Below, piece by piece: positions 10,078 through 25,643 of a stretch of DNA of 64,000 nt; position 1 is the first letter of the stretch, and every line of letters begins with the position of its first letter. Below the pieces are notes generated by a model, which searched no databases, was not told the origin of the DNA, and saw nothing but the letters and a program-made list of their open reading frames with translations. The position numbers were made by a program, and so were the translations under genes. Source of the DNA: Lachnospiraceae bacterium (GTDB lineage Bacteria > Bacillota > Clostridia > Lachnospirales > Lachnospiraceae); contig JAFSYI010000059.1 in assembly GCA_017450065.1 (NCBI GenBank), forward strand, positions 90,522 to 154,521. The letters run 5' to 3'.

Positions 10078-10159
10078 GCGGATATGGCGGAATTGGCAGA
10101 CGCGCAGGATTTAGGTTCCTGTGCCGCAGGGTGTGCGGGTTCGACTCCCGCTATCCGCA
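10078..10159 (+). tRNA. tRNA-Leu (anticodon TAG)
   Basis: An 82-nt class II tRNA: acceptor GCGGATA/TATCCGC, anticodon stem CAGGA/TCCTG with loop TTTAGGT giving TAG, long variable arm TGCCGCAGGGTGT, T arm GCGGG TTCGACT CCCGC, discriminator A. CCA is not encoded. Confidence 0.96.
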
Positions 10160-10237: not shown

Positions 10238-12412
10238 ATGAATCACAAAAGTGGAAGCCCCGAACAGCCCTCGTGCGTGCTTCTCTGTGGGAAAACCGAA
10301 TTGCTTGATTATGAGACCCTTAAGCAGATAGCGCAGTACTACAATGTGGTTGTTTCCGGAGAAAGAATAAACAGGGATATATACCGCAGGAAGTTAACGC
10401 GTAAGATACACATATATAATGAAGATCCCACATCCGAGAATTTCAAAAAGATAGCCTATGCATATTCGCCTGATGTGATATGGTATTTTTCGGGTTTTGC
10501 GGATGGCGGGGACGGACTTGACAACGAGAGCAGGAAGATAGAAAGGCTCATTGAGTGCTGTGTTGCCAACGAAGTGCAGAAGCTTATTATCATATCTTCG
10601 ATTAACAGTCTTAATTACACCCCGTTAACGGAGCAGAAGATGATCATCGGGAAGGAATTCGCATCTCCCCGTTCCTTTGACTGTGCCAAAATGGAAGAGC
10701 TTGTGAGCTTCAATGCAGGCAGGGGTCAGATAAGGACTGTTATTGTAAGAGCACCATATATATCAGGCAGGATAAGCAGAAACAATTATCTCAGCAGCAT
10801 ATTTGCCACCATGATGGATAACGGTGCCGTATCATTTCCATATAATGAAAAACAGATGATAGATTTCTTTTCATTAAGAGATCTGTGTGAACTGCTCATA
10901 TCCATTACCGAAGAAACCATGGATTCCACGGGTGAGTATACCGTGCTCAGCGGTTATCAGACCACTTACGGGGAATTCGGCTCAATGCTCAAGGGACTTG
11001 ATGCCACGGTAAAGCTGGAATATGACAGACCGGCTGTCTATGATCTTGTGCTGAATAAGGAGCGCGAGGCGCAGAGAGTCAGGGAAAGCTACGGTTTTAT
11101 AGCTGCCGATAATGTACTTGACGGTTTGGATGAGGCTTACAGAGAGTATTCAAGGAATGTTGTAAAAAAATCGGCTTTAAAGGAAAAGCTCGGGAAGTTT
11201 CTGACTCTGGTTTCCGACAATACTCTTAAGTTTGCCGAGCTGATAATACTGTTCATAGCAGTTCAGTATCTTCTTAAATACACTTCGGATTCGGTTTATT
11301 TTAAATATATCGATCTCAGGCTTTTCTTCGTTGTGATCCTCGGAATGACTCACGGAATGCATATCGGAATCCTGGCCGGTGTTCTTGAATGTATATCGCT
11401 TGTTCTCGTATACAGGCAGACGGGTGTGAACGGCATGATGCTGTTCTATAACGTTGATTACTGGCTGCCCTTCGCAATTTATCTTATGACCGGAGCGATA
11501 ACCGGATATATCACGACCGCAAAGAATCAGAAGATTTCTTTCATGGAGCAGGAGACTGCGGCACTTCAGGACAAGTATATGTTCCTTAACAATGTATATA
11601 TGTCGGTCATTGATAACAAGGAGGAATACAAGAGACAGATCCTTGGTTATCAGGACAGCTTCGGGAAGATATTCGAGGCAGTCGAGAAGCTCGACAGCTC
11701 GGTTCCTGCCGATATTTTCATGAACGGTGTCAATACTTTGGAACGCATACTGAACAACAGAAGCATAGCCATCTATACCATGGATGAATGGCAGAAATAT
11801 CTGCGCCTTGTTGCCTGCTCAAGAGAGATGATGGCAAGATTGACCAATTCGGTCAGTATCGATGATTTCAGGATAATATACGATGAGATACTGGATAAGG
11901 GAACATGGAAGAATACTGATTTTGCCCCGGGTCTTCCAATGTACGCCTACGGTATAGTGGAGGATGGGAAGGTCAGGCTTATGATCTGTCTGTTTGAGGC
12001 GGGTCCCGAGCAGATGGGACTGTATTATATGAACCTGTTCACTATACTGTGCAGCCTTATCAGGGTATCCTTCATCCGTGCGCTTGAGTATCAGCAAGCG
12101 ATTGAGGATGAAAAATATTACAGGGATACAGAGGTACTGATCCCATCCTTCTTTGAGGATGAGCTTAATTCACAGAGGAAAATGGCAGAGGCCGGTGTCG
12201 CAAGCTATATCCTGCTGCAGATAGAGGAATCTGATGTCACGAGCTTTAATGACAGCCTTAAGGGCCTTATAAGACACAGCGATATAGCCGGCGCCGGGTA
12301 TGACGGTAACTATTATCTGCTTCTGACACAGACCAACAGGGATATAGTAGGCATAGTGGGCAAGAGGTTAACGGAGCATGAGATCAAATATACGGTCGTG
12401 GAGGGAATGTAG
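10238..12412 (+). CDS. pelD: PelD-like c-di-GMP receptor with N-terminal SDR-like domain
   Basis: Predicted membrane receptor that activates Pel polysaccharide polymerisation when it binds c-di-GMP. Domain order: residues 1-300 resemble a nucleotide-sugar epimerase/SDR fold (IISSINSL, VIVRAPYISG) but lack a clear TGxxGxxG; about four membrane helices at 334-430; a GAF-like region at about 470-620; a degenerate GGDEF domain at 645-724. In that last domain the catalytic motif is replaced by YDGNYY while the inhibitory c-di-GMP site R679-H-S-D682 is intact, as in known PelD receptors. First gene of the pel run, 78 bp after tRNA-Leu; ribosome binding site AAAGGGA is 12 bases before ATG. The stop is 3 bases from the next start. 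The PelD call rests on this architecture plus the downstream genes. Confidence 0.82.
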   Translation: MNHKSGSPEQPSCVLLCGKTELLDYETLKQIAQYYNVVVSGERINRDIYRRKLTRKIHIYNEDPTSENFKKIAYAYSPDVIWYFSGFADGGDGLDNESRKIERLIECCVANEVQKLIIISSINSLNYTPLTEQKMIIGKEFASPRSFDCAKMEELVSFNAGRGQIRTVIVRAPYISGRISRNNYLSSIFATMMDNGAVSFPYNEKQMIDFFSLRDLCELLISITEETMDSTGEYTVLSGYQTTYGEFGSMLKGLDATVKLEYDRPAVYDLVLNKEREAQRVRESYGFIAADNVLDGLDEAYREYSRNVVKKSALKEKLGKFLTLVSDNTLKFAELIILFIAVQYLLKYTSDSVYFKYIDLRLFFVVILGMTHGMHIGILAGVLECISLVLVYRQTGVNGMMLFYNVDYWLPFAIYLMTGAITGYITTAKNQKISFMEQETAALQDKYMFLNNVYMSVIDNKEEYKRQILGYQDSFGKIFEAVEKLDSSVPADIFMNGVNTLERILNNRSIAIYTMDEWQKYLRLVACSREMMARLTNSVSIDDFRIIYDEILDKGTWKNTDFAPGLPMYAYGIVEDGKVRLMICLFEAGPEQMGLYYMNLFTILCSLIRVSFIRALEYQQAIEDEKYYRDTEVLIPSFFEDELNSQRKMAEAGVASYILLQIEESDVTSFNDSLKGLIRHSDIAGAGYDGNYYLLLTQTNRDIVGIVGKRLTEHEIKYTVVEGM

Positions 12413-12415
12413 GGA

Positions 12416-13432
12416 ATGCATTGGATAGTGATCTTCTTTATACTCCATATCCTTGTCTGCACCGTGGTTCTGTGCCTCAGGATACTGCGTATACTGAAGT
12501 GCGGTTATATAAACATTTTCATAGCTTTCTTTGTGCCCGTATGGGGAATGGTAATGCTGATACGCAAGCGTTATTCGGATAAGCATTCGGAGAGAGAAGG
12601 CGAGGAGATCGACGCCAGGATGCCGACAGCGGAATTTGAAAAGAAGAGCGTCCCGATTGATCAGGATGAGAAGGATATCGTGCCTTTGGCGGAGGCGCTT
12701 GCCGTTAATGACAGCGTCACACGAAGGGATATAATGATGGACATCCTCTACAGCGTGAACAAGAGCATTGTCGTGGAGAACGACGATCTTAAGGAGAAGG
12801 TCGTTCCGCTTGAAGAGGCACTGGTCGTAAATGATACGGCAACGAGAAGGAACCTTATCATAGATGTTCTTTATTCCAATCCGAGTGAATATGTGGCTCA
12901 GCTTAACGATGCCAAGGAAAATAAAGACACAGAGGTTGTGCACTATGCCGCGACGGCACTTGCCGAGATACAGAAGGATTTCGACCTTAAGTTCCATGAC
13001 ATCATGCTGAGGAAGGCGGAGGATCCCGATAATGAGGCGACAGACAATGAGTACCAGGTTCTCCTTGAGAATTATATAGCCAGCGGGTTGCTGGAGGGTG
13101 ATGCACTTAAAAACCAGCTCAGGAATTACTCGGAACTTCTTGACAGAAAGATAAGCAGGAAGGAAACAAAGGGCAGATGGACGCTGCTTAACAAGAAGGC
13201 GGATGCGGACCTTAAGCTGAGGGATGCCAAAGCACTTGATAAGGATGTTGTTCTTATGTCGAAGCGCTGGCCCGAGCACGAGAACGTCTATATGTATAAG
13301 ATGCAGAGCGCCATGCTTAAGAAGGACAGCGTGCGCATAAGGGAAATAATAAAGGAAATACGGGATAAGAATATATATCTTTCGGCTGAACTGCGCGGAC
13401 TGGTTCAGTTTTGGGATGAAAAAGCAGGATGA
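12416..13432 (+). CDS. pelE: PelE-like membrane-anchored helical-repeat protein
   Basis: Two N-terminal membrane segments (about residues 3-22 and 32-49) followed by a charged, all-helical cytoplasmic region, the layout of PelE, which works with PelD and PelG in the inner-membrane Pel complex. A 26-residue unit occurs twice (residues 88-113 and 129-154; consensus VPLxEALxVNDxxTRRxxxxDxLYS), indicating an internal duplication in a TPR/HEAT-like scaffold. It starts 3 bases after pelD and ends in an ATGA overlap with the next gene, so translation is probably coupled. Sequence alone would not identify it; position and topology do. Confidence 0.7.
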   Translation: MHWIVIFFILHILVCTVVLCLRILRILKCGYINIFIAFFVPVWGMVMLIRKRYSDKHSEREGEEIDARMPTAEFEKKSVPIDQDEKDIVPLAEALAVNDSVTRRDIMMDILYSVNKSIVVENDDLKEKVVPLEEALVVNDTATRRNLIIDVLYSNPSEYVAQLNDAKENKDTEVVHYAATALAEIQKDFDLKFHDIMLRKAEDPDNEATDNEYQVLLENYIASGLLEGDALKNQLRNYSELLDRKISRKETKGRWTLLNKKADADLKLRDAKALDKDVVLMSKRWPEHENVYMYKMQSAMLKKDSVRIREIIKEIRDKNIYLSAELRGLVQFWDEKAG

Positions 13433-15330
13433 ATAAACTGTTTGGGAGAGAAAAAAAAGAAAAGCTTAAGAATGCTGCTCATATAAATCTGGGAGGCGTA
13501 TATGTCCTCGGAGTCATGTACTGTATACTTATGGTGGTGCTTATTGCGGTTCAGGCAAATGTAAGATATACGATACGTGCCGACCGTCTTACCCTGCTTC
13601 CGAGGGAAGAGCTTGCAAAGCTTAAGACAGAGCAGACAGAAAGGATGGACGATACATTCCGGACTGACAGCCCGGATACACATAAGGACACCCTTCTGGT
13701 TATAGAGGACGGCGATGCCGGAAGTGAGAAGGCGCAGAAGCTTTATATCCCTGTTTTTTCGCAAATGAAAATAGCTTATGATGTGTGTACGGCCGAGACC
13801 CTTGAACCCGGGATGATCCGGGAATACGATAAGATAGTTCTGGCGATAACCCATTATCCTCTGCTTGCGGATACGATAGCCGATCTTAAGGTATGGGTGA
13901 AGCAGGGCGGAAATCTCATGATAGCCTATCCGCCCGAGGTATCGGGGAGTTACCAGACTCTTTATGAAATCCTCGGAATCAAGGACAGCGGAGATACCAC
14001 ATTGGTTGAGGGGCTGCATTTTGATAAGAATTTCATGATCGGAGGGATTGCAAAGGATTACTACATCATAGATGCCTATGACTGCTCACTGGGACTGTCC
14101 ATCACGGATGACTGTGAGGTCTATATCCGTTCGACCGATGAATATTCGGTGCCTCTTGTCTGGCGCAGGAAAGCCGGGGAAGGAACCATAGTGGTGGACA
14201 ATTTCGGTATCCTTGAGAAGGCATACAGAGGGATACACTGCGCGGCTTACAGCCTGTTGGGAGACTACTGTATATATCCCGTGATAAACGGCGCAGCTTT
14301 CTATATAGATGATTTTCCCTCACCGGTTCCGGGAGGTGACGGACAGTACATAACAAGGGACTACAATATGTCCATCAGCGATTTCTATTCGCAGGTATGG
14401 TGGAATGACATATATGAGCTTGCCAAAAAACATAATATTTATTACACGGGCCTTGTAATAGAGGATTATTCCAATCAGGTAAGCGGTGAGTTCGTACGGA
14501 ACAGGGAGATAAGGAGATTCCAGTATTTCGGAAACATGCTGTTGCGTTCGGGCGGTGAGATAGGAATACACGGGTACAATCATATGCCGCTGGTGCTTGA
14601 GAATTTCGATTACAAGGATCAGTATGATGCCTATATCCAGTGGCCTTCGGTTGAGGATATGAGGAATTCACTTAATGAGGTGTTTGATTTTACACATGAC
14701 CTGTTCAAGGATGAGGAACTGCTGGTCTATGTGCCGCCCTCGAATGTTCTGTCAGAAGAGGGCAGGAAGCTCTTAAATGAAACATCCATCCGTTCCGTGG
14801 CAGCCGTTTATCTGTCGACGGATATGGCCTTTGAGCAGGAATTCGATGTATCCGGAGACGGAATGATCAACTGTCCGAGGATCACGTCCGGCTGTGTTAT
14901 AGATGATTATATGGAACTGGCTGCTCTGTCGGAGTTAAACCTGCATTTCGTTAATACACATTTCGTTCATCCCGATGATGTGCTGGATGAGGACAGAGGT
15001 GCCCGTCTCGGCTGGGCGAAGCTGTATAAGAATCTGTGTAACTATTATGACTGGCTGTACAAAGTATGTCCCAAGCTGCGTAATATGACGGGTACCGAGC
15101 TGGCTGCAGCCGTAGAGCATTACGATCTGGTAGGAGTAAACAGAGAATTTACGGATGACAGGCTCACGTTAAAGCTTGATAATTTCAATGGTGAGAACTG
15201 GATGCTGTTTCGCGTAAATAACGGCAAGAAGCTCTTAAGGGTCCGGGGCGGAGGCTTTGATGAGGTTGCCGACGGACTGTATCTTATACGATGTGCTAAG
15301 GATGAAGTCGAGCTGGAGATATATAAATAA
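13429..15330 (+). CDS. DUF2194-family polysaccharide deacetylase, Gram-positive PelA deacetylase counterpart
   Basis: Predicted membrane-anchored, surface-facing esterase that removes acetyl groups from Pel. One membrane helix at about residues 23-42; residues 80-270 form a Rossmann-like domain; the catalytic part has family-4-like motifs: FYIDDFPSP with Asp294/Asp295, GEIGIHGYNHMPL with His381 and His385 (HxxxH metal site), and a late THFVHPDD. A beta-rich tail covers the last 70 residues. The 633-residue length fits DUF2194 proteins, often found with pelF/pelG. The start overlaps the pelE stop (ATGA) and the stop directly abuts the pelF start. Unlike Pseudomonas PelA no separate glycoside hydrolase domain is recognisable. 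Confidence 0.78.
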   Translation: MNKLFGREKKEKLKNAAHINLGGVYVLGVMYCILMVVLIAVQANVRYTIRADRLTLLPREELAKLKTEQTERMDDTFRTDSPDTHKDTLLVIEDGDAGSEKAQKLYIPVFSQMKIAYDVCTAETLEPGMIREYDKIVLAITHYPLLADTIADLKVWVKQGGNLMIAYPPEVSGSYQTLYEILGIKDSGDTTLVEGLHFDKNFMIGGIAKDYYIIDAYDCSLGLSITDDCEVYIRSTDEYSVPLVWRRKAGEGTIVVDNFGILEKAYRGIHCAAYSLLGDYCIYPVINGAAFYIDDFPSPVPGGDGQYITRDYNMSISDFYSQVWWNDIYELAKKHNIYYTGLVIEDYSNQVSGEFVRNREIRRFQYFGNMLLRSGGEIGIHGYNHMPLVLENFDYKDQYDAYIQWPSVEDMRNSLNEVFDFTHDLFKDEELLVYVPPSNVLSEEGRKLLNETSIRSVAAVYLSTDMAFEQEFDVSGDGMINCPRITSGCVIDDYMELAALSELNLHFVNTHFVHPDDVLDEDRGARLGWAKLYKNLCNYYDWLYKVCPKLRNMTGTELAAAVEHYDLVGVNREFTDDRLTLKLDNFNGENWMLFRVNNGKKLLRVRGGGFDEVADGLYLIRCAKDEVELEIYK

Positions 15331-16746
15331 ATGAGAATCTGTGTAATCTTGGAGGGCTGTTACCCGTACGTTACGGGCGGAGTATCAACCTGGATACATC
15401 AATATATGAAGGCAATGCCGCAGCATGAGTTCGTTATCTGGGCGCTGGGTGCCGATGCTTCCCAGAAGGGCAGATATAAGTACGAGCTTCCCGACAATGT
15501 TGTGGAGATCAAAGAGGTCTTCTTAAACGATGCCCTTAAGAAAACAGGCAAGGTTAAGAAATACCGCTTTACGGATGAAGAGATAAACACTCTTCATGAT
15601 CTTATAGACTGTAACAGGCCGGACTGGGAGATGCTGTTTTCGATGTATGCCGACAACAGGATAGATCCGCTGTCATTTCTTATGAGTAAGGATTTCCTTG
15701 ATATCCTGACAAATATCTGTGAAGAGGAATATACCTATACGGCATTCTCCGATTTCTTTCATACGATCAGGTCGATGTTCCTGCCTGTATTGTATATACT
15801 TCATACGGATATTCCCAAAGCGGATATCTATCATTCGATAGCGACGGGTTACAGTGGGATACTGGCAAGGCTCGGGAGTTATAAATACAATGTTCCTTAT
15901 ATGATAACGGAGCACGGTATTTATACAAGGGAGCGGGAAGAGGAGATAATAAGAGCAAAGTGGGTTCTTCCGGCATTTAAGAGATTCTGGGTAAGGTTTT
16001 TCTATATGCTTTCGGCAGGCGCATATGAAAAGGCGACGATGATAACGAGCCTTTACGCCGGAGCAAGGAAAATACAGATAGATATGGGCTGCGACCCCGA
16101 CAAATGTGTATACATAGGCAACGGTATACACTATGAAAGATTTAAGGATATACCGCCCAAGAAACCGAACGGTTTTGTTGATATCGGAGCGGTCCTCAGG
16201 ATAGCCCCTATAAAGGATGTCAAGACAATGATCTACGCCTTTGCCGGTGCCAAGGAGAGGGTTCCGAACGCAAGGCTGTTCATAGCGGGTCCCGAGGACG
16301 ATAAGCAGTATTCGCAGGAATGCTATGACCTGGTTGAGAGACTGGGCGTTAAGGATATCATTTTCATGGGCTCGATAAATGTTGTGGAACATATGGGGGA
16401 TTTCGATTTTACGGTGCTTTCAAGCATATCGGAGGGCATGCCGCTGTCGGTGCTTGAATCCTTCGCATCCGGAAGGCCCTGTGTTACGACAGATGTCGGT
16501 AACTGCCGTGAGCTTCTGTTCAAGGTAGCGGAGAGGGATTTCCTCGGAAGCGCGGGTTACTGTGTTCCGCCGATGGATGTACAGCAGCTCAGCAATGCGA
16601 TGGTCAATATGTGCAATCAGCCGGAGAAGCGTTATAAGATGGGACTTGTTGCAAGGGAGCGGGTTGCCAAATATTTTCTGCATGAAGAGATGATACGTAA
16701 GTATCTTGAAGTATATGATGAGGTATTCAGAAGATGGCAGGGATAG
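15331..16746 (+). CDS. pelF: Pel polysaccharide glycosyltransferase PelF (GT4)
   Basis: Cytoplasmic GT-B glycosyltransferase that polymerises Pel from UDP-activated N-acetylhexosamines. The N-terminus RICVILEGCYPYVTGGVSTWIHQYM is diagnostic of PelF, with TEHGIYTRERE in the middle and the GT4 ExxxxxxxE motif SEGMPLSVLESF (Glu368 and Glu376). The 471-residue length is slightly shorter than Pseudomonas PelF (about 507). The ATG follows the previous stop codon directly, and the end overlaps pelG by 13 bp, so the three genes are tightly coupled. Confidence 0.95.
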   Translation: MRICVILEGCYPYVTGGVSTWIHQYMKAMPQHEFVIWALGADASQKGRYKYELPDNVVEIKEVFLNDALKKTGKVKKYRFTDEEINTLHDLIDCNRPDWEMLFSMYADNRIDPLSFLMSKDFLDILTNICEEEYTYTAFSDFFHTIRSMFLPVLYILHTDIPKADIYHSIATGYSGILARLGSYKYNVPYMITEHGIYTREREEEIIRAKWVLPAFKRFWVRFFYMLSAGAYEKATMITSLYAGARKIQIDMGCDPDKCVYIGNGIHYERFKDIPPKKPNGFVDIGAVLRIAPIKDVKTMIYAFAGAKERVPNARLFIAGPEDDKQYSQECYDLVERLGVKDIIFMGSINVVEHMGDFDFTVLSSISEGMPLSVLESFASGRPCVTTDVGNCRELLFKVAERDFLGSAGYCVPPMDVQQLSNAMVNMCNQPEKRYKMGLVARERVAKYFLHEEMIRKYLEVYDEVFRRWQG

Positions 16747-18257
16747 GCTTCAGCCTTAAGAAGCTGTTTAGAAAGAAGGGAATACTTAACCTGTGCAAGG
16801 CGTACGGATACTCGGGCATAGTTACGATAGGCCCGATGATCTTAGGCGTCTGCCTTCTCGTGGGAATGGCCTTTGTCGCCAGAATGGGAGGCATGAGCGA
16901 TCATGACAGGGAGCTGCTTAACTGTATGCTTACCTACAGCCTTCTGGTCGCTCTGTTCGTGACCAACTGGTTTAACATGGTAGTTACCCGTCATGTTTCT
17001 GACATGATATTTGAGAATCATGAAGAGAAGGTCATGCCGTCCTTCTTCGGAGCGGTTGCTGCAGAGCTGGTGATATGCTTCCTCATGTATGGTATTTTCC
17101 TGCTGTTTGCGGGTGCGAAGGCTTCGCAGAGCATCCTCTGCCTGTGGCTGTCAATGGTACTTATCGTAGTCTGGACAGAGATGATATACATGACAGCGCT
17201 TAAGGACTTTCAGGCTATCGTGCTTACATTTGCGCTGTCTCTTATGACGGGATTTCTTGCTGCGCTTATACTGGTGGTGCTCGGATGGATCAGCATCGAG
17301 ACCTGTCTTCTGTGTGTTATCCTCGGATACGGTCTTCTGGCGGCCAGACAGTTTAAGCTGATGCTTGATTACTTCCCCAGGAGTGAAGGCAGCAATTATT
17401 CGTTTCTCTACTGGTTTGACAAATATCCTGCGCTTGCGGCATCCGGCGGCATGGTCGGAATAGGGCTGTTCAGCCATATAGTCATCATGTATTTCGGTCC
17501 CTTGAGGGTTCAGGTACAGGGACTCTTCTACGGAGCTCCCGAATATGACGTGCCTGCCCTGCTGGCCTTCACTTCGCTGCTTATAACAACGGTCAGTTTT
17601 GTTGTATCCGTGGAGGTCAACTTCTATCCCAAATACAGCAATTACTACGGCCTGTTCGGAGATAAGGGTGCGATAAAGGATATCAAGCTTGCCGGCAAGG
17701 AGATGCTGGACATGCTTAAGAGAGAGCTTGTTTATCTTGGCTGCAAGCAGATGTTTACGACAGTACTGTTTGTCGTTGTGGGGCCACCGGTGATAGAATA
17801 TTTTATTCCCGGAATGAGTTCTCTGTCCATATCTATATACCGGTTCCTGTGCGTGGGATACGGTTCCTATGCGATAGCCAATTCACTTATGCTCATAGAG
17901 CTTTATTTCGAAGATTATAAAGGCGCATTTATAGGAACCACGCTGTTTGCGGTATTAAGTACCTCGATAAATATCTGGCAGATACTTAAGGGTGATATAC
18001 ATTACTTCGGAGTGGGATTTTTCATAGGTGACATAAGCTTCTTCTTCAGCTCGCTTATAAGGCTTCACTGGTATACGGGAAGGCTGCCCTACTTCCTTCT
18101 GTCAAGGCAGAGCCTCGTGCCGGATACGGAGAAGGGACTGTTTGTGACCATAAGCCGTATCCTTGATAAGCATCAGGAGCGCATAAAGGAGAAGATAAAT
18201 AAGAAGCTGTCTGCCAAAGCGGATAATTTACTGGAGCGGGAGGGGCTTAAACGCTGA
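16734..18257 (+). CDS. pelG: Pel exopolysaccharide export/polymerisation membrane protein PelG
   Basis: Polytopic membrane protein related to Wzx flippases that, with PelD, PelE and PelF, transports the polymer across the membrane. The N-terminal signature MAGIGFSLKKLFRKKG is highly characteristic of PelG, followed by about 12 hydrophobic helices over residues 25-460 and a lysine/arginine-rich cytoplasmic tail. The 507-residue length is somewhat longer than the usual ~456 because of that tail. It overlaps pelF by 13 bp and the next gene by one base (TGATG). Confidence 0.95.
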   Translation: MAGIGFSLKKLFRKKGILNLCKAYGYSGIVTIGPMILGVCLLVGMAFVARMGGMSDHDRELLNCMLTYSLLVALFVTNWFNMVVTRHVSDMIFENHEEKVMPSFFGAVAAELVICFLMYGIFLLFAGAKASQSILCLWLSMVLIVVWTEMIYMTALKDFQAIVLTFALSLMTGFLAALILVVLGWISIETCLLCVILGYGLLAARQFKLMLDYFPRSEGSNYSFLYWFDKYPALAASGGMVGIGLFSHIVIMYFGPLRVQVQGLFYGAPEYDVPALLAFTSLLITTVSFVVSVEVNFYPKYSNYYGLFGDKGAIKDIKLAGKEMLDMLKRELVYLGCKQMFTTVLFVVVGPPVIEYFIPGMSSLSISIYRFLCVGYGSYAIANSLMLIELYFEDYKGAFIGTTLFAVLSTSINIWQILKGDIHYFGVGFFIGDISFFFSSLIRLHWYTGRLPYFLLSRQSLVPDTEKGLFVTISRILDKHQERIKEKINKKLSAKADNLLEREGLKR

Positions 18258-20134
18258 TGGGAGTAAAAGCAGGATCAAAAACGAAAGCTAAAGCAAAAGC
18301 ATTAACGGCATTCATACTGCTCACCGCTCTTTTATTGGAAGCGTGTTCTCCTCCGGGGACGAAGAAAGCGGGGAATGATAAAAAATCACCATCCAAATCG
18401 TTCGATAAGACGGAGCCTGTCAGTGTGGACAGGGTGGAGAAAGCAGAGAAGACTGAGCTTAATCTTACAGAGAAGAAGGATATTTATGATGATGACCGCG
18501 ACGAAGCCTCTGTTATAACGATGTACCTTACGGTAAGCAGGGGAAACAGGGCGGACGGAAGCGACCATACATGGACGGAGATAAATACCTATTCGCAGGA
18601 TGACTATGACAGGATGGGAGTGGACCGCTATAAGGTGGAAGGCCTTCTTCAGATAGATGAAACCGGGAACGGGATAAAGAAGGGTTCCTACGGATACGGT
18701 GAGACTGTTCCGAACGTATCGGTGCAGGTAAGAGGACAGACATCCACAAGAGCGGATCAGAAGAATTACAAGATACGGATAAAGGACGGCAAGGAGAGAT
18801 TCAGGGGACAAAGGACGCTCAACCTTAACAAACACCGGAGCGAGCCTTACCGCTTCCTTAACAAGCTCTGCTACGATCTTATGGATCCCATCCCTCAGCT
18901 CATGGGGGCAAGGACTCAGTTCGTCCATCTGTATGTAAAGGATACTACCGGAGACGGCACACCAAAGGAGTATCCCGAATGGGAAATACCTCCCGAAATT
19001 GTTGACGGGTATGAGGACTACGGCCTGTTTACCATGGTCGAGCAGATCAACAGAACCTATATGAAGTCCCATGGGATGGATGAGAACGGGCATCTGTATA
19101 AGGTGACTTTCTTCGAATGGAATAAATACGAGGAGGTCATGGTTCCTAAGGACGATCCTTCCTTTGACAGGGATGCGTTTGAGGACTATCTTGAGATCAA
19201 GGGTGATGAGGATCCCGCCAAGCTCCAGAACGTCCTTAATATGATACATAATTACACCATTCCGATAGATAAGATCGTGGATGAGCATTTCGACGCCGAG
19301 AATATCTGTTACTGGATGGCCTTTAACATACTGGTGGGCAATTATGATGTGGGTGCCAGGAACCTGTTTATCTACAGTCCGCTTAATTCACAGCGCTTCT
19401 ACATGATATGCTGGGATATGGATGTTGCATTTAAATCATCGTATAACGAGTGGGCGGGCTACAGCGACGGAGTATCCTGGGAATGCGGGATGACGCAGTT
19501 CCTTGTCGTGACACTTGTCAACCGTATGATGAAGGAAGAAAAATACAGGAATATGCTAAGCGCGGCCGTGGATGACCTGTACCGCAATTATGTGACTCCG
19601 GATAAGGTAAATGCGAAGGTTGCGGCATACCGTACGGAGATCAAACCGTATTTATACAGATCACCCGATATAAATCATCTTCAGCTTGATGATATGCAGG
19701 TTTATGATGAACTTACGTCAAAGCTTGGTTCGGAGGTAGACCGTAATTACCGGGTATATAAGGAGTCGCTCAAGAATCCGTGGCCCTTCTACGTGGACAT
19801 GCCCAAGGCCAATAAGGATACGGGCAGGCTTATCCTCAGCTGGGGTATATCATATGATATAAACGAAGAAACCGTCACCTATGATTATGAGCTGGCAAGA
19901 GATTATAAATTCACGGATGTGATAAGCAGTGGAGAGGATCTTGAGGTTCCGCTCGTGACGGTTCCGCTTCCCGAGGCGGGGAAGTATTTCCTTAAGGTCA
20001 CGGCGACCAATGAATCCGGCTATACCACGGACTGCTTCGATTATTATTCCGTGGATGATTACGGCAAGAATTACGGATGCTACGGGTTTGTGATAAAACC
20101 GAACGGTGAGACCGAGGTTGCCTCGGAGGAATAG
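18257..20134 (+). CDS. CotH-kinase-family lipoprotein (first copy)
   Basis: Predicted extracellular lipid-anchored protein kinase of the CotH/Fam20C-like family. The basic N-terminus and hydrophobic stretch end in LLLEAC, a slightly unusual lipobox, so Cys30 would be lipidated. Residues 90-180 form a beta-rich region with VSVQVRGQTS; the kinase core holds LYKVTFFEWNKYEEV, the catalytic NYDVGARN (Asp364) and metal-binding WDMD (Asp387/Asp389). A C-terminal beta domain (about 530-625) resembles a fibronectin-type module. It starts inside the pelG stop, which makes it part of the pel transcription unit. Known CotH kinases phosphorylate spore-coat proteins; here a surface or matrix protein target is inferred. 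Confidence 0.85.
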   Translation: MGVKAGSKTKAKAKALTAFILLTALLLEACSPPGTKKAGNDKKSPSKSFDKTEPVSVDRVEKAEKTELNLTEKKDIYDDDRDEASVITMYLTVSRGNRADGSDHTWTEINTYSQDDYDRMGVDRYKVEGLLQIDETGNGIKKGSYGYGETVPNVSVQVRGQTSTRADQKNYKIRIKDGKERFRGQRTLNLNKHRSEPYRFLNKLCYDLMDPIPQLMGARTQFVHLYVKDTTGDGTPKEYPEWEIPPEIVDGYEDYGLFTMVEQINRTYMKSHGMDENGHLYKVTFFEWNKYEEVMVPKDDPSFDRDAFEDYLEIKGDEDPAKLQNVLNMIHNYTIPIDKIVDEHFDAENICYWMAFNILVGNYDVGARNLFIYSPLNSQRFYMICWDMDVAFKSSYNEWAGYSDGVSWECGMTQFLVVTLVNRMMKEEKYRNMLSAAVDDLYRNYVTPDKVNAKVAAYRTEIKPYLYRSPDINHLQLDDMQVYDELTSKLGSEVDRNYRVYKESLKNPWPFYVDMPKANKDTGRLILSWGISYDINEETVTYDYELARDYKFTDVISSGEDLEVPLVTVPLPEAGKYFLKVTATNESGYTTDCFDYYSVDDYGKNYGCYGFVIKPNGETEVASEE

Positions 20135-20169
20135 AAGGTTTGAGATAAAGTATTTCAGGAGTATCATTT

Positions 20170-21939
20170 ATGTCTGTTTCAAAGAAGCTTTCAATCTGTA
20201 TGTTACTGCCGGCGCTATGCCTTGCGCTGCTGAGCGGCTGCCTCGCGGCTGACCCGCAGGCAGAACAGACGGAGGACAAATACATAAAAGCCCCGGTGAG
20301 CGAATCGCTTAAGATAAGGGATCTGAATTCACTGTACCGGTATATGCCTACCGAACAGGTACTGTATCTTACGGTGGGCAGGGGTTTTTCGGAAGAGAGC
20401 GGAGAACATTCATGGCAGGAGATCAATGCTCATGACCTTGCATGGTATAAGTCCAATGATACGGACATATACGAGTGCAATGCGCTGGTTCAGTTCGGTA
20501 ATGAAGAGGGACCTGCATCGGGGAACTTCGGTTACGGGAACATGGCGAACAATGCGACTGTCAGGCTCTACGGAATGAATTCATCGGCAAGACAGCAGAA
20601 GAGCTACAGGATCAGGATAAACCAGGGAAACGGTAATGTTTCCGGAATGAAAGCCTTCTTTCTGAGCAAGAGCTTTACCGATCCCTTCAGATTTACAGGC
20701 AAGCTGTGTTCCGATCTTATCACGCAGATAGACGGGCTTATGTCGGAGAGGACGGGCTTCGTCCATCTCTATGTAAGGGACGAGAGTACCGGACCCGATG
20801 CGATGTTTGTGGATTATGGCCTGTATACCCTGATCGAACCGGTGAATAAGAGATATCTTTCCAACAGAAGCCTTGATGATTCGGGCGAGCTGTACAAGGC
20901 CGTTGATTTTGATTTCGGAAGACATAAGGGCGTCATCATGCAGCCTACAGAGGAAAGCTTTGACAATGAGGCTTTCGAGGAACTTCTTGAGGCCAAGGGC
21001 TCCAATGATTATACAAAGCTTATAAACATGCTGGATGCGCTCAACGATCCCTCGATACCTGTTGAAGATGTGATCGGCAGATATTTTGACAAGGAAAGCC
21101 TGTATGATTTCCTGGCTTTTAATATCCTTGTAGACAACAAGGATACGGATACGACCAACTTCTATCTTTACAGTCCCACCGGAACCGAAAAGTTCTATAT
21201 AATACCATGGGATATGGACGGGGCACTGAGACATGATTATGAGCTGCTCAGGGATCCGTCATATTCCGAAGGGTGGGAGAAGGGCATATATCTGTACACG
21301 GATTCCCTTCTTTTCTCAAGAATAATGAAGAGTCCGGTGTGTATCAATGAACTGAGCGAACGCATCGCCATCCTGCATGAAGGAGTTCTTTCGGGTGAGA
21401 ATGTTGTAAGAATGGCAAGGGAGCTTGCCATGAAGGTTAAGCCATATCTGTATGCTCTTCCCGACATGACCTTTGCAAGGGTGTCAAGACCCGCTCACGA
21501 CCAGCTGGTCGAGCAGCTCAAGCCACAGATGGATTACAATTATTACGCATATTATGATTCACTGGAGACTCCGTGGCCGTTCCATATTAAAGATCCGGAG
21601 AACAGTAACGGCCATGTAAGATTCACGTGGGAGGAATCCTTTATGCCTGCAAAAGGAGAAGGGATGACGGACGATGATATCACCTATACCGTCGAACTGT
21701 CCGATACATGGGACTTTGATCACATGATAAAGACAGCATCCGGTTTACGAACGACTTCCTATGATGCGGGTATAATGTCGCCGGGACAGTATTTTGTCAG
21801 GATCAGCGCCGTTTCTAAGGACGGTATTTCACAGGAAGCTTATGAGTTCTACAACACAGAGCTTAAGACAACGGTTAACGGAGTGCTGTGTTTCTATGTC
21901 TTTGAGGACGGAACCATAGTTCCCTCGACATTCGAATGA
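20170..21939 (+). CDS. CotH-kinase-family lipoprotein (second copy)
   Basis: Second CotH-like kinase, 589 residues, with a clear lipoprotein signal ending in LLSGC (Cys23). Same layout as the gene before it: beta region with VRLYGMNSSARQQKSYRIR, core motifs LYKAVDFDF, NKDTDTTN (Asp325) and WDMDGAL (Asp348/Asp350), then a C-terminal beta domain ending FVRISAVSKDG. The two copies are clearly paralogous but diverged, suggesting different targets rather than a recent duplication. The catalytic aspartates are intact in both. Separated by 35 bp from the first copy; ribosome binding site CAGGAG sits 11-12 bases before the ATG. Confidence 0.87.
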   Translation: MSVSKKLSICMLLPALCLALLSGCLAADPQAEQTEDKYIKAPVSESLKIRDLNSLYRYMPTEQVLYLTVGRGFSEESGEHSWQEINAHDLAWYKSNDTDIYECNALVQFGNEEGPASGNFGYGNMANNATVRLYGMNSSARQQKSYRIRINQGNGNVSGMKAFFLSKSFTDPFRFTGKLCSDLITQIDGLMSERTGFVHLYVRDESTGPDAMFVDYGLYTLIEPVNKRYLSNRSLDDSGELYKAVDFDFGRHKGVIMQPTEESFDNEAFEELLEAKGSNDYTKLINMLDALNDPSIPVEDVIGRYFDKESLYDFLAFNILVDNKDTDTTNFYLYSPTGTEKFYIIPWDMDGALRHDYELLRDPSYSEGWEKGIYLYTDSLLFSRIMKSPVCINELSERIAILHEGVLSGENVVRMARELAMKVKPYLYALPDMTFARVSRPAHDQLVEQLKPQMDYNYYAYYDSLETPWPFHIKDPENSNGHVRFTWEESFMPAKGEGMTDDDITYTVELSDTWDFDHMIKTASGLRTTSYDAGIMSPGQYFVRISAVSKDGISQEAYEFYNTELKTTVNGVLCFYVFEDGTIVPSTFE

Positions 21940-22000
21940 TCTCCCGGGAGAAAGACGGGGCCGTCCGGCGGTGTCATATCCGGGCGTAAAAGAGGATATA

Positions 22001-22738
22001 ATGAGCGACAGACGAATCTTCAGAAATGAATGGAAATACATAATCTCACACAGTGAGGCCGATCTTTTAAAGGACAGGCTGCTTAATGTTCTTACTCTTG
22101 ATCCCCACGCGGGCAGGGAGGGCTATGAGATAAGAAGCCTGTACTTTGATGACTACGCCAATTCCTCCTATAACCAAAAGCTTATGGGGGTGTATGCCAG
22201 AAAGAAGTGGCGGATAAGGATATACGATTACAGCGACAGCGTCATATCGCTTGAGAGGAAGGTTAAGAACGGCAATTACATATTTAAGGAATCCGCCCGT
22301 CTGTCAAGGGATGAAGCTGAGAGGCTCATCGAAGGGGATTACGGCTTCCTTCTTAAGAGAGAGGAAAATCTGTGCAGGGAATTCTACGCCGAGAGCAGTT
22401 TCAGCCTCCTGAAGCCCAAGGTGATCGTTGATTACAGAAGGTTCCCGCTTGTGATGGATGAGGGAACGGTAAGGATAACCTTTGACAGTGAGGTATGCGC
22501 GGCTGTCGGCAGTTATGATATATTCGACAGGGAGCTTGTAAAGCTTCCGGCTCAGGAGTATGACAGGGAGGTTCTGGAGGTGAAATATACCGAATTCCTT
22601 CCCTTCAGCGTAAAGAAGCTTCTGCCTATGAGGGGAAGTGAGTTCAGCGCATTTTCCAAATACGTGGTCTGCTTTGAGGCGGCACACCATATAACCGATG
22701 TGAGCGCGGGGATAAGCAAGTCTCATATTTCGGAATAG
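22001..22738 (+). CDS. VTC-domain (polyphosphate polymerase-like) protein
   Basis: A 245-residue protein of the VTC/CYTH-related fold, whose eukaryotic member Vtc4 makes polyphosphate from ATP. Visible tunnel-lining motifs: FRNEWKYIIS near the start, IRSLYFDDY, ARKKWRIRIY, SLERKVKNGNYIFKES, KPKVIVDYRR and LEVKYTEFLP; these strands supply the basic and acidic residues of the active site. An in-frame GTG at 21971 would add ten residues, but ATG 22001 has AGAGGAT about 6 bases upstream and gives the usual N-terminus. It lies between the CotH pair and a DUF4956 membrane protein, a grouping seen in other bacteria. Polyphosphate synthesis here is inferred from the fold only. Confidence 0.85.
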   Translation: MSDRRIFRNEWKYIISHSEADLLKDRLLNVLTLDPHAGREGYEIRSLYFDDYANSSYNQKLMGVYARKKWRIRIYDYSDSVISLERKVKNGNYIFKESARLSRDEAERLIEGDYGFLLKREENLCREFYAESSFSLLKPKVIVDYRRFPLVMDEGTVRITFDSEVCAAVGSYDIFDRELVKLPAQEYDREVLEVKYTEFLPFSVKKLLPMRGSEFSAFSKYVVCFEAAHHITDVSAGISKSHISE

Positions 22739-22793
22739 GATAAAGAGAGTCAACATACAGATCGTTAAACATATATGGGAAGAGGAGACAAAA

Positions 22794-23477
22794 ATGAACA
22801 CTAATGATTATTTCAAGAAATCGGTGCTTGAATCGTTTACCGCGGGAAACGGCCTGACGGTTGATTTCGTGGTATCGGCCTGTATAGCCATGGCAATAGC
22901 GATAGGCCTCGGGCTGCTTATCTATCTTGTTTACAGACAGTTCTACGGAGGCGTCGTGTACTCCCAGGCCTTTGCGATGACTTTGGTCGGAATGACTGTA
23001 CTTACCTGCGCACTGACTCTGGCAATAAGCAGCAACATAGTTATTTCCCTCGGTATGGTTGGTGCTTTGTCGATCGTGCGTTACAGGACAGCGATCAAGG
23101 ATCCGATGGATCTTCTGTACCTTTTCTGGTCGATCTCTATAGGCATTATAGTGGCAGCTGGCATCTATCCTCTTGCGATCATCACGATGCTTGTCATGTT
23201 CCTTCTCGTGCTGTTCTTCTATAAGAAGAAGCAGTCGGGGATCATATACATCCTTGTTGTTCACTACGAGGGAGATGATACCGGAGCTGAAGTTATTAAG
23301 CTGTTCGGAAGCATACGGTATCAGGTAAGGTCAAAGACCCTTAGAAAGGGAACAGCGGAGCTTACGGTTGAACTCCTGTCAAGAAAAGGCAATATGGCCT
23401 TCGTGGATAAGATAAATGCTCTTCCGGGAGTTAAGGATGTGAGTCTGATCCAGTACAACGGAGAATATAATGGATAA
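22794..23477 (+). CDS. DUF4956 membrane protein
   Basis: A 227-residue protein with about four or five membrane helices between residues 22 and 145 and a soluble C-terminal ferredoxin-like domain of about 80 residues (IIYILVVHYEGDD to DVSLIQYNGEYNG). The conserved segment MVGALSIVRYRTAIKDPMDLLYLFW is the DUF4956 hallmark. The family commonly accompanies VTC-domain and CotH proteins and may provide the membrane channel or anchor that cytosolic VTC proteins lack; this is inference. Ribosome binding site GAGGAG lies about 8 bases before the ATG. It overlaps the next gene by 8 bp. Confidence 0.88.
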   Translation: MNTNDYFKKSVLESFTAGNGLTVDFVVSACIAMAIAIGLGLLIYLVYRQFYGGVVYSQAFAMTLVGMTVLTCALTLAISSNIVISLGMVGALSIVRYRTAIKDPMDLLYLFWSISIGIIVAAGIYPLAIITMLVMFLLVLFFYKKKQSGIIYILVVHYEGDDTGAEVIKLFGSIRYQVRSKTLRKGTAELTVELLSRKGNMAFVDKINALPGVKDVSLIQYNGEYNG

Positions 23478-24870
23478 AAAAAAGAGCATTCTGATACAAT
23501 ATGGTCTCATATTGATACTTGGAGCCGCGATTGCCTGGCTCATAGTATATATCCGTATGCGTTCCAATCTGAATATTTATACCGATTTTGCACCTGATAC
23601 AACACTGACTGATAATCCTCTTATGGGTTTTGCACCGGATGCCGGGAATACCGCCCACTGCGAGAAGACCAATCTTGTTTATATACCTCTTACATGGGCA
23701 CAATGGGAACCGCAGGACGGAGTGTATGATATCGATGCCCTGGAGAAGAGATGTAATATACCCAGATGGAAGGAAGAACATAAGCATGCAGTCCTCCGGT
23801 TCATGTGTGACGTTCCGGGGGACAGGGATCATATAGATATCCCGCAGTGGCTGTATGACAGGGCCGGAAAAGGAACACATTACGATACAGAGATAGGCAG
23901 GGGGTATTCGCCTGACTATTCGGATGAGTATTTTATCGAAAGGCATGATCAGGCAGTCAGGGCGCTGGCCGAATACTGTAACAGGGATTACTTCGTATCC
24001 TTTGTGGAGCTCGGAAGCCTGGGACACTGGGGTGAATGGCACGCTACCGGCAATAACGGCAGATCGGTCATGCCTGATGAGAGCATCTGCTCGCGTTATG
24101 TGTCGGTCTACTCAGACGGATTTATAAAGGCAAGGCTTCTTATGAGAAGAAATTATGAGATTGCCGTGAAGGGGCGTATGGGCTTCTATAACGATATGCT
24201 TGGGGATAAGAAAAGTACCGATGAATGGCTTGACTGGATGGAGAACGGAGGGAGCCAGGTTACATCGGGCGAACCGCTTCCTTTAAGAAGGGTCATCAAT
24301 GTGGGACGGGAACTGCCGGTCGGAGGAGAGTTCACATCTTCGATACCGATGGAGGATATGCTGCTTAAGGATATAGGCGGAGTACTGGCAGCCGTATCAT
24401 CATCCCATATGACTTTTATCGGTCCCAAGACGCCCGACCTTGTAAATGAGGATTACAAGCTTGCCGCCGAGTCGGTACTGAGACGTATGGGATACCGTAT
24501 ATATGTATCCTCACTGCAGACCAGATATGATTATTCGAGCAACAGCATCGAACTGCAGCTTACGTTCCACAATGCGGGAAACGCCGGTTTCTATTTTGAC
24601 TGGCCGGTGACGGTCTATATATTTGACGGTACGAAAAAGCAGGTGTTCTGGAAAGGTTTGGACCTTGACCTGCGTGAACTGAGTTCGGGCGAAGAGATGA
24701 CGGTAACGACAATGGTACCGGCGACCTCGGAGCTCAGGGATGAGTTCTATATAGGAGTCGATATAACGGACTATACAGGTGATGAGCATGTAAAGCTTGC
24801 GATCGATAACGGCGGTGAAGATGAGTATATCGGCGATGTTCAGATACTGTATCATCATGTGGAGCTGTAG
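23470..24870 (+). CDS. DUF4832-containing membrane-anchored protein, glycoside-hydrolase-like
   Basis: Begins with a single membrane helix (about residues 8-25), so the 440-residue remainder faces outside. The text NPLMGFAPDAG, YIPLTWAQWEPQDG and the alpha/beta pattern to about residue 330 are typical of the DUF4832/DUF4874 group, which look like TIM-barrel carbohydrate-active enzymes. Acidic residues in VSFVELGSLGHWGEWHA are likely catalytic-site candidates. The last 100 residues form a beta-sandwich. As the last gene of the pel run it may trim, bind or modify the polysaccharide, in the role the hydrolase domain of PelA plays elsewhere; this is inferred from position only. No clear terminator follows. 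Confidence 0.75.
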   Translation: MDKKKSILIQYGLILILGAAIAWLIVYIRMRSNLNIYTDFAPDTTLTDNPLMGFAPDAGNTAHCEKTNLVYIPLTWAQWEPQDGVYDIDALEKRCNIPRWKEEHKHAVLRFMCDVPGDRDHIDIPQWLYDRAGKGTHYDTEIGRGYSPDYSDEYFIERHDQAVRALAEYCNRDYFVSFVELGSLGHWGEWHATGNNGRSVMPDESICSRYVSVYSDGFIKARLLMRRNYEIAVKGRMGFYNDMLGDKKSTDEWLDWMENGGSQVTSGEPLPLRRVINVGRELPVGGEFTSSIPMEDMLLKDIGGVLAAVSSSHMTFIGPKTPDLVNEDYKLAAESVLRRMGYRIYVSSLQTRYDYSSNSIELQLTFHNAGNAGFYFDWPVTVYIFDGTKKQVFWKGLDLDLRELSSGEEMTVTTMVPATSELRDEFYIGVDITDYTGDEHVKLAIDNGGEDEYIGDVQILYHHVEL

Positions 24871-24926
24871 GAGTAACTCCGGATTATTAACGACGTGTGA
24901 TCCTGACAACAGAGAGAACCGGGCAT

Positions 24927-25643
24927 ATGAGAAAAATATTACTGACAAATGATGACGGAATAGATTCCGGAGGCATAATAAGACTGGCAGAAGCTGCCAG
25001 GGAATTCGGAGAAGTATGGGTCATAGCGCCTCTGCATCAGAGAAGCGCAGCGTCCCACTGTATTACCTTAAGGGAACCGGTGGATATATTTCCGCACAGC
25101 TTTCCCGTTGAGGGTGTGAGAGCGTATTCGTGCAGCGGTACTCCTGCCGACTGCGTAAGGGTGGGAAGCCTTGCGGTCATGCCGTATAAGCCTGATGTCG
25201 TTCTCTCGGGCATCAACTATGGATACAATGCGGCAACCGATCTTCAGTATTCGGCAACGGTAGGCGCGGCAATGGAAGCTGTTTTCCAGGGATACGGTGC
25301 CATTGCTTTTTCTGAGGACATGAATGACTGCCATGAGGTGACGGATGCATATCTCAGGGATATCCTTGATGAATATATAGATGTCCGCCCGGGATATGCA
25401 AGCATTGTCAACGTGAACTTTCCGGGCTGTAAGCTCAGTGAATGCAACGGAGTGCTCAGGGACCGGAAAACTTCGAGAAGCTCCTTCTTCAACGACCGGT
25501 ATAAGGCATTGGAAGAGCTTGAGGGAGGCGGTGTAAGATATATGGTCGACGGGATACATAATTACGAGTCGGAGGAAGGTACAGACTTCTACGCTCTTAT
25601 GCATAATTATATTTCGGTCGGAACAGTACATAACATTGCCTGA
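24927..25643 (+). CDS. surE: 5'/3'-nucleotidase SurE
   Basis: Metal-dependent phosphatase that dephosphorylates nucleoside monophosphates and possibly short polyphosphate. The ATG at 24927 gives the canonical start RKILLTNDDGID with the two metal-binding aspartates at residues 8 and 9; the upstream GTG at 24897 would add ten residues unlike the family. Further motifs are APLHQRSAASHCIT, SGTPADCVRVG and VLSGINYGYNAATDLQYSATVGAAMEA in two pieces. The 238-residue length is normal. It follows the pel block by 56 bp on the same strand without a terminator, so some read-through is possible. Confidence 0.93.
   Translation: MRKILLTNDDGIDSGGIIRLAEAAREFGEVWVIAPLHQRSAASHCITLREPVDIFPHSFPVEGVRAYSCSGTPADCVRVGSLAVMPYKPDVVLSGINYGYNAATDLQYSATVGAAMEAVFQGYGAIAFSEDMNDCHEVTDAYLRDILDEYIDVRPGYASIVNVNFPGCKLSECNGVLRDRKTSRSSFFNDRYKALEELEGGGVRYMVDGIHNYESEEGTDFYALMHNYISVGTVHNIA

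Follow-up and report, generated by a model that had tools for sequence, protein, structure and literature searches.

In streptococci and clostridia, the Gram-positive exopolysaccharide operon pelDEADAFG can be contiguous with genes for a CotH protein, a polyphosphate polymerase, a DUF4956 protein and a DUF4832 protein, and this second accessory group correlates with a PelD bearing an extra N-terminal epimerase domain (PMC7112168, 2020; this source, like PMC12345266, PMC9911596, PMC7821199 and PMC2879425 below, is cited from its accessible text). Here we describe an operon of this kind at positions 10238-24870 of a 64,000-nucleotide stretch of Lachnospiraceae bacterium DNA (assembly GCA_017450065.1, contig JAFSYI010000059.1, positions 90,522 to 154,521, forward strand), hereafter the window. 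The linkage that the first-pass annotation had singled out as what stands out in the locus has been in print since 2020 (PMC7112168), and the operon adds one more case to a published architecture. What is new is the independence of the accessory cassette from Pel, its association with GT2 operons, the existence of PelG and CotH1 as single open reading frames (ORFs), a one-sided loss of catalytic Asp residues between CotH copies, and the conservation of individual residues.

The functional evidence comes from S. intermedius, in which each gene was deleted and all of pelDEADAFG was required for aggregation (PMC12345266, 2025). In the same study, loss of SIR_1594 (CotH) or SIR_1592 lowered aggregation by over half in artificial sputum medium, with more Pel in the SIR_1592 mutant and less in the SIR_1594 mutant. 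For SIR_1593 (polyphosphate polymerase domain) and SIR_1591 (DUF4832), the accessible text of PMC12345266 reports no decrease in aggregation, and glycoside hydrolase activity was shown for the protein encoded by SIR_1591. SIR_1592 is reported as a membrane protein with an ACT domain and, from gene order and this description, is taken here as the DUF4956 gene. In addition, the Pel of S. intermedius appears to be GalNAc-rich and possibly neutral, and PMC12345266 states that the trio of CotH, polyphosphate polymerase and DUF4956 is not found outside Pel. The window holds the same genes and a PelD that is putatively of the SDR type (short-chain dehydrogenase/reductase), and differs from the set described in the accessible published text in its two cotH genes.

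Our reading, to which we give a probability of roughly 55%, is that an SDR-PelD-type Gram-positive Pel operon has here been joined by a Pel-independent pair for polyphosphate synthesis and export, together with a kinase-like protein that is exported and sits at the Pel exit. The ten ORFs are the following:

10238-12412, + strand: pelD; putative degenerate SDR/epimerase-like N-terminus, membrane segment, GAF-like region (by analogy) and degenerate GGDEF-like tail with RHSD
12416-13432, + strand: pelE; assigned by position and relatives
13429-15330, + strand: pelA-DA; DUF2194 deacetylase-like (PF09960, 485.3 bits)
15331-16746, + strand: pelF; GT4 polymerase (NF038011, 361.8 bits, NCBIfam cut-off 100; Pfam DUF3492 and GT4)
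16734-18257, + strand: pelG; exporter (PF16933, 390.6 bits)
18257-20134, + strand: cotH1; kinase-like, probably exported (CotH Pfam PF08757; Asp pair intact)
20170-21939, + strand: cotH2; kinase-like lipoprotein (CotH Pfam PF08757; Asp pair intact in the window)
21971-22738, + strand: VTC polyphosphate-polymerase-like domain (Pfam VTC; GTG start, or possibly the in-frame ATG at 22001)
22794-23477, + strand: DUF4956 membrane protein (Pfam); constant neighbour of VTC in Bacillota
23470-24870, + strand: DUF4832; likely glycoside hydrolase (Pfam; by analogy with the published S. intermedius counterpart, PMC12345266)

The first-pass coordinates and its picture of a tight operon on one strand were confirmed: pelG and cotH1 share one base (TGATG), the DUF4956 and DUF4832 genes overlap by 8 bases, and short gaps separate cotH1 from cotH2 (35 bases), cotH2 from VTC (31) and VTC from DUF4956 (55). 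Matches above the curated Pfam cut-off were obtained for DUF2194, DUF3492 with GT4, PelG, both CotH proteins, VTC, DUF4956 and DUF4832. PelF and PelG are both present and adjoining, which places the operon in the pelDEADAFG group, and the cotH, polyphosphate polymerase, DUF4956 and DUF4832 genes are contiguous with pelG as in the accessory group of PMC7112168.

The VTC-DUF4956 pair with and without Pel

To place the accessory genes in a wider context, we used 249 Bacillota genomes drawn evenly, the window's own included, so that frequencies refer to Bacillota only. VTC and DUF4956 occurred in the same 39 genomes, at 50 and 49 places respectively (one DUF4956 place falling under the curated cut-off). 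PelG was found in 10 genomes (9 above cut-off), three of which belong to the 39; likewise, among 14 control genomes the same three matched both VTC and DUF4956, and none of those three had PelG. In the window's own genome (88% complete), each of the four VTC matches is paired with one of the four DUF4956 matches, versus a single match to PelG. Of its other three pairs, the one on contig C54 has the order VTC-DUF4956-CotH, and those on C35 and C66 (L015, L017) are followed by a Cthe_2159-type (PF14262) protein, the C35 pair lying beside a two-component system.

All 45 DUF4956 loci of the even sample outside the own genome were then inspected, with Pel labels resting on stretches of at most about 20 kb. 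In 44 of them a VTC is no more than 2.5 kb away, and in 43 it is the immediate neighbour; at L143 CotH sits between the two genes, and no VTC is seen at the one exception, L125, where the DUF4956 gene ends close to a contig border and the genome's VTC likewise lies at one. CotH is found within 2.5 kb of DUF4956 in 27 loci, 26 of which have no Pel genes near; a Cthe_2159 protein is near 12 (one of them with CotH too), and 7 have neither. Pel genes are near only 1 of the 45. A second set, the best 80 of 330 loci picked for closeness to the window, has VTC, CotH and Pel genes beside 57 of its 80 scored DUF4956 genes; as it was selected for closeness, frequencies are taken from the 45-locus sample only. 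The linkage of VTC, CotH, DUF4956 and Pel is not due to chance. Accordingly, the co-occurrence of Pel and cassette expected by the first-pass annotation is indeed seen in other genomes, but Pel linkage is not the usual state of the cassette.

Plasmids extend this picture. Six plasmid records carry a DUF4956 match and four of them a VTC: VTC-DUF4956-CotH in Planococcus and Nonomuraea (by profile), VTC-DUF4956-Cthe in Paenibacillus and, in the S. intermedius order, CotH-VTC-DUF4956 among glycosyltransferase and pyruvyltransferase genes on Pseudobutyrivibrio pNP95. In 34 kb of pNP95 there is no match to PelG, PelD, PelE or PelA-DA, and a GT4 gives a weak PelF-profile match (22 bits). Since Pel-free trio loci exist, on plasmids included, the statement of PMC12345266 that the trio is absent outside Pel does not hold. 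As a separate observation, on Sinorhizobium meliloti pSymA (L149:3278-5648) a caspase-domain protein adjoins a DUF4956 protein that has no VTC.

Pel itself appears to have taken up the cassette on few occasions. In a DUF4956 tree (FastTree, 129 rows, 21 of them without a Pel label as the stretch was too short), one branch with support 97 comprises 57 of the 60 Pel-labelled rows, 3 Pel-free rows and 10 unlabelled ones. Two further Pel rows, L089 and L122, are unresolved near the base of that branch, and the remaining Pel-labelled row, L073_20, is a second, Cthe-type DUF4956 copy within the stretch of a Pel locus. The Pel label changes seven times on the tree versus 35.8 times in shuffles, which would fit one or a few recruitments by Pel.

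Other polysaccharide operons carry the cassette as well. In eight loci (L152 of Planococcus, L113, L174, L175, L176, L178, L180 and L181) VTC-DUF4956-CotH is followed by a 689-amino-acid-type protein, a HEAT-repeat protein and a chitin-synthase-type GT2; a kinship of the first two with PelD and PelE was considered and dropped, their scores being at noise level. At L110 and L112 the trio stands beside GT2 and DHHW-type genes, with MBOAT (L110) and AlgX (L112) slightly under the cut-offs, and in the own genome MBOAT and AlgX-like genes come after the C54 trio. A published counterpart is the NELoc-2 locus of C. perfringens (PMC2879425), which shares with the window a VTC, CotH and two membrane proteins annotated as 'tubulin/FtsZ' (226 and 222 amino acids) that by analogy are probably DUF4956 proteins. 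It differs in that the place of Pel is taken by a 685-amino-acid protein, a HEAT protein and a GT2-like 'chitin synthase', and its order is like that of the eight GT2 loci, plus an inserted resolvase and second VTC. In a census around 21 Pel-free CotH loci, covering 132 of 164 neighbouring proteins (those of L101, L103, L105, L138 and L140 were omitted, being too large or near-copies), the most frequent family was that of response regulators (13), followed by histidine-kinase domains (11-12), and GT2 accounted for 4; the polysaccharide linkage is therefore repeated, not general. Directly ahead of the Pel-free C54 trio lie ppx and ppk1 (L016:4666-12082), but neither gene occurs in the fetched stretch of any of the ten closest outside relatives of the C54 VTC (L174-L183), and this linkage is therefore not used as evidence.

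The VTC domain is strongly conserved in sequence. Specifically, 15 of 18 alignment columns checked are identical in 60/60 rows, nine of them basic, and the other three in 59 rows with one gap; the conserved columns include K79, R81, R83, E95, K97, K106, R157, R168, E203, K205, S229 and K230. Against solved structures, the best matches of the VTC profile are Vtc4 chains (yeast Vtc4 3g3q, E 1e-15). Vtc4 R264, R266, K281 and K294 fall on R81, R83, K97 and K106, and K200 on K22, which is kept in 59/60 rows, the remaining row having a gap; Vtc4 positions were counted along a printed alignment, assuming an offset of 3 residues, and K200, K281 and K294 are what we take to be the Vtc4 residues. R264 and R266, together with E426, were mutated to inactivate Vtc4 (PMC9911596). 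The VTC assignment of the first-pass annotation stands, and the residues aligning with those of Vtc4 are retained. In the adjoining DUF4956 protein three regions are hydrophobic (about 25-46, 60-95 and 107-142), and its basic residues K8, R96, R98 and K102, kept in 97% or more of 60 rows, might contribute to a pore. The likeness to the yeast VTC complex (Vtc1/Vtc3/Vtc4; PMC9911596) thus lies in the aligned catalytic residues and in the pairing with a membrane protein, whereas the window VTC, at 255 amino acids, is too short for an SPX domain and its DUF4956 partner shows no detectable sequence kinship to Vtc1.

CotH1, CotH2 and their fusion with PelG

Both CotH proteins of the window keep the equivalents of D228 and D251 plus aligned Lys and Glu residues (B. 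subtilis numbers, PMC7821199, transferred via the 23-residue spacing), and CotH matches the solved structure 5jd9 with an E of 0.003. They share the kinase-like domain and the D228/D251-type residues with the Bacillus spore-coat CotH (PMC7821199; 5jd9), and differ from it in being probably exported and tied to polysaccharide synthesis. Of the two CotH lipoproteins first annotated, CotH2 has a standard lipobox (LSGC), but CotH1 has LLEAC, outside the lipobox pattern used.

The two copies have distinct fates. Among Pel loci holding two CotH genes and no more, 36/36 first copies and 23/36 second copies have an intact catalytic Asp pair (lost in 0 versus 13; Fisher p 6.5e-5, a guide only, as the rows share ancestry). 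L036 and L066, with three CotH ORFs each, were omitted from the count, and one of the L036 ORFs has lost a residue. On the CotH tree the loss corresponds to nine changes; it is therefore recurrent and one-sided. The five single CotH proteins of streptococci group on the CotH1 side. An analogy can be drawn with the secretory Fam20C/Fam20A kinase-pseudokinase pair (PMC7948968), likewise two paralogues of which one lost catalytic residues; the likeness is one of analogy only. The 0/36 versus 13/36 split can guide the choice of the CotH to assay and of the one to regard as its partner.

A single ORF of 976-1103 amino acids encodes both PelG and CotH1 in 13 loci, among them L044 of Claveliimonas bilis, versus 46 separate PelG ORFs. 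The fused state requires three changes on the tree (two without L026), and in all 12 linkers visible among the 13 a hydrophobic stretch runs up to a lipobox-like Cys. Eight families were tested for fusion, and the only two other fused pairs occur in one degenerate locus. A PelG-CotH fusion is not described in the open-licence literature that we found, including PMC7112168 and PMC12345266 in their accessible text, supplementary figures excluded. Because many CotH proteins have lipoboxes and, in the fusions, CotH follows PelG after a linker that bears a lipobox-like Cys, their sequences suggest that CotH proteins are located outside the cell, and the fusions hint at where CotH acts.

Two side observations concern the same families. 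The degenerate locus, L077 of Eisenbergiella porci (L077:6114-10579), joins PelG to DUF4956 and PelA-DA to PelF, has no CotH or VTC match and looks like a deleted pel locus. In addition, further CotH-domain ORFs lie downstream of the Pel operon at L037:12177-17060 (long, opposite strand) and L046:13188-15047.

PelD, the other pel genes and transcription signals

The PelD of the window matches no family above cut-off (the scores for Epimerase, 14.2 bits, and DUF4118, 13.9 bits, fall short of it), and the structure search found no PelD structure. Its C-terminal tail aligns with those of relatives, with RHSD-(5)-YDGNY and a further Arg at +31. The c-di-GMP ligands of B. cereus PelD are R363, D366 and R395 (PMC7112168). 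The RxxD motif is present in the window PelD and in nine aligning non-streptococcal rows and missing in the five aligned streptococcal ones, rows L080 and L088 not aligning in this region; streptococcal PelD is reported without the domain (PMC7112168, PMC12345266). As PelD keeps the RxxD I-site motif and the own genome has 42 GGDEF matches (40 over cut-off), control of Pel by c-di-GMP, which had been mentioned for this type of operon at the outset, appears plausible here.

As for the remaining pel genes, PelE matched no family above cut-off in the Pfam and NCBIfam scans. In PelA-DA, DUF2194 (which we take to be the Gram-positive PelA deacetylase-like family) covers residues 68-619; the protein is deacetylase-like without a hydrolase domain, and Polysacc_deac_1 scores 13.9 bits, under cut-off.

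A terminator separating pelG from CotH, which would split the operon proposed at first, was looked for: all 9 terminator-like sites on the + strand are intragenic (16 on both strands, versus 10.8 expected). Promoter-like matches number 39, versus 26.4 expected (sd 4.8). One of them (20140-20167, 10/12) falls in the 35-base gap between cotH1 and cotH2, so that there may be an internal promoter. A tRNA gene (10078-10159, + strand) lies immediately upstream of pelD, and the Rfam scan of the window for known RNAs gave two matches at gathering score, both tRNA. On the other side, surE (24897-25643) starts 26 bases past the DUF4832 gene; its product is a possible polyphosphatase. The arrangement was set aside as lineage-specific: among the loci compared, surE lies directly behind DUF4832 in three more, all close relatives, and at a distance in one.

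Proposed mechanism and its alternatives

In the mechanism that we propose, the Pel operon is probably switched on by c-di-GMP. A cytosolic VTC domain would make polyphosphate from ATP, and DUF4956, as its dedicated membrane partner, would most likely pass the chain outward, in analogy with the membrane subunits of yeast VTC. An exported CotH, or Cthe_2159 elsewhere, would be the effector outside the membrane. At the Pel exit, adjoining or fused with PelG, CotH1 would be the active kinase-like enzyme and CotH2 a duplicate prone to becoming a pseudokinase. DUF4832, which the first-pass annotation had counted among the genes making an anionic polymer, may instead trim or release Pel, its S. intermedius counterpart being a glycoside hydrolase (PMC12345266).

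That loss of CotH or of the DUF4956-position gene in S. intermedius alters both Pel level and aggregation (PMC12345266) speaks for this mechanism. So do the gene content, the conserved VTC residues, the pairing of VTC with DUF4956, the Pel-free loci with CotH, the DUF4956 branch that gathers most Pel rows, the PelG-CotH1 fusions, the one-sided Asp loss, and the PelD motif together with the GGDEF matches. Gene content, pairing, fusions, residue conservation and independence from Pel are thereby shown, whereas the making and export of polyphosphate, the site and substrate of CotH and the parts played in the matrix are inferences. Several observations weigh against it. The same mutants show a defect at the DUF4956 position and, in the accessible text, none without VTC, a poor fit to an obligate pair; polyphosphate without an exit could be harmful, or DUF4956 could work alone. 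Near the DUF4956 gene of two of the six plasmid records (Sinorhizobium L149, Hymenobacter L147) no VTC was matched, and the pairing is therefore not universal. Against solved structures, the DUF4956 profile gave four chance-level matches up to E 10, with no Vtc chain or channel among them. In the VTC domain, E203 is identical in 60/60 rows, yet its possible counterpart in Vtc4, E426, lies outside the printed alignment. Moreover, CotH1 has no standard lipobox, and our searches of the open-licence literature found no measured activity for any bacterial VTC of this type.

A different possibility, on balance improbable but not far-fetched, is that the cassette regulates Pel, with CotH/DUF4956 sensing or signalling the phosphate state and VTC acting as a phosphate buffer, with no polymer in the matrix. 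The opposite Pel levels of the two S. intermedius mutants and the lack of a reported VTC phenotype (PMC12345266) would be consistent with this, as would the regulation by CotH already proposed (PMC7112168), the presence in 24/48 VTC-DUF4956 loci of an ORF from a cluster represented by a response regulator, and the rank of response regulators in the neighbour census; the many lipoboxes and the fusions, on the contrary, suggest that CotH is outside. It is also conceivable, though unlikely, that the names mislead and the VTC domain is a triphosphate-tunnel hydrolase or nucleotide sensor, not a polymerase. Its first strand reads RxExK, versus RxTxK in Vtc4, and is nearer to the ExExK of other tunnel enzymes; to our knowledge, no activity has been assigned to this bacterial VTC group. 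The identity of 15 of 18 columns and the rank of Vtc4 chains among the profile matches argue against such a function. The model of the first-pass annotation, in which the downstream half produces polyphosphate or phosphorylated proteins as an anionic cross-linker of cationic Pel, seems to us decidedly unlikely. The conserved VTC residues and the recurrence of the trio beside other polysaccharide operons agree with it, but S. intermedius shows no reported loss of aggregation upon VTC deletion, under those conditions, and its Pel may be neutral (PMC12345266).

A more far-reaching version of the proposed polyphosphate export can be formulated, in which we place very little confidence. The VTC-DUF4956 pair, as a polymerase-translocase, would supply polyphosphate as phosphate donor to CotH outside the cell, where ATP is scarce; CotH1 would phosphorylate the exopolysaccharide as it emerges, or else a protein of the matrix. 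CotH2 would be its pseudokinase partner, and the cassette would have been taken up by two or more polysaccharide synthases that are unrelated to each other. We found no measured function for the VTC-DUF4956 pair in the open-licence literature. The accessory trio does not belong to Pel as such, and VTC-DUF4956 is a widespread Bacillota cassette. If it is true that polyphosphate is exported to a kinase-like protein outside the membrane, this would answer the question of how bacteria might phosphorylate targets outside the cell without ATP.

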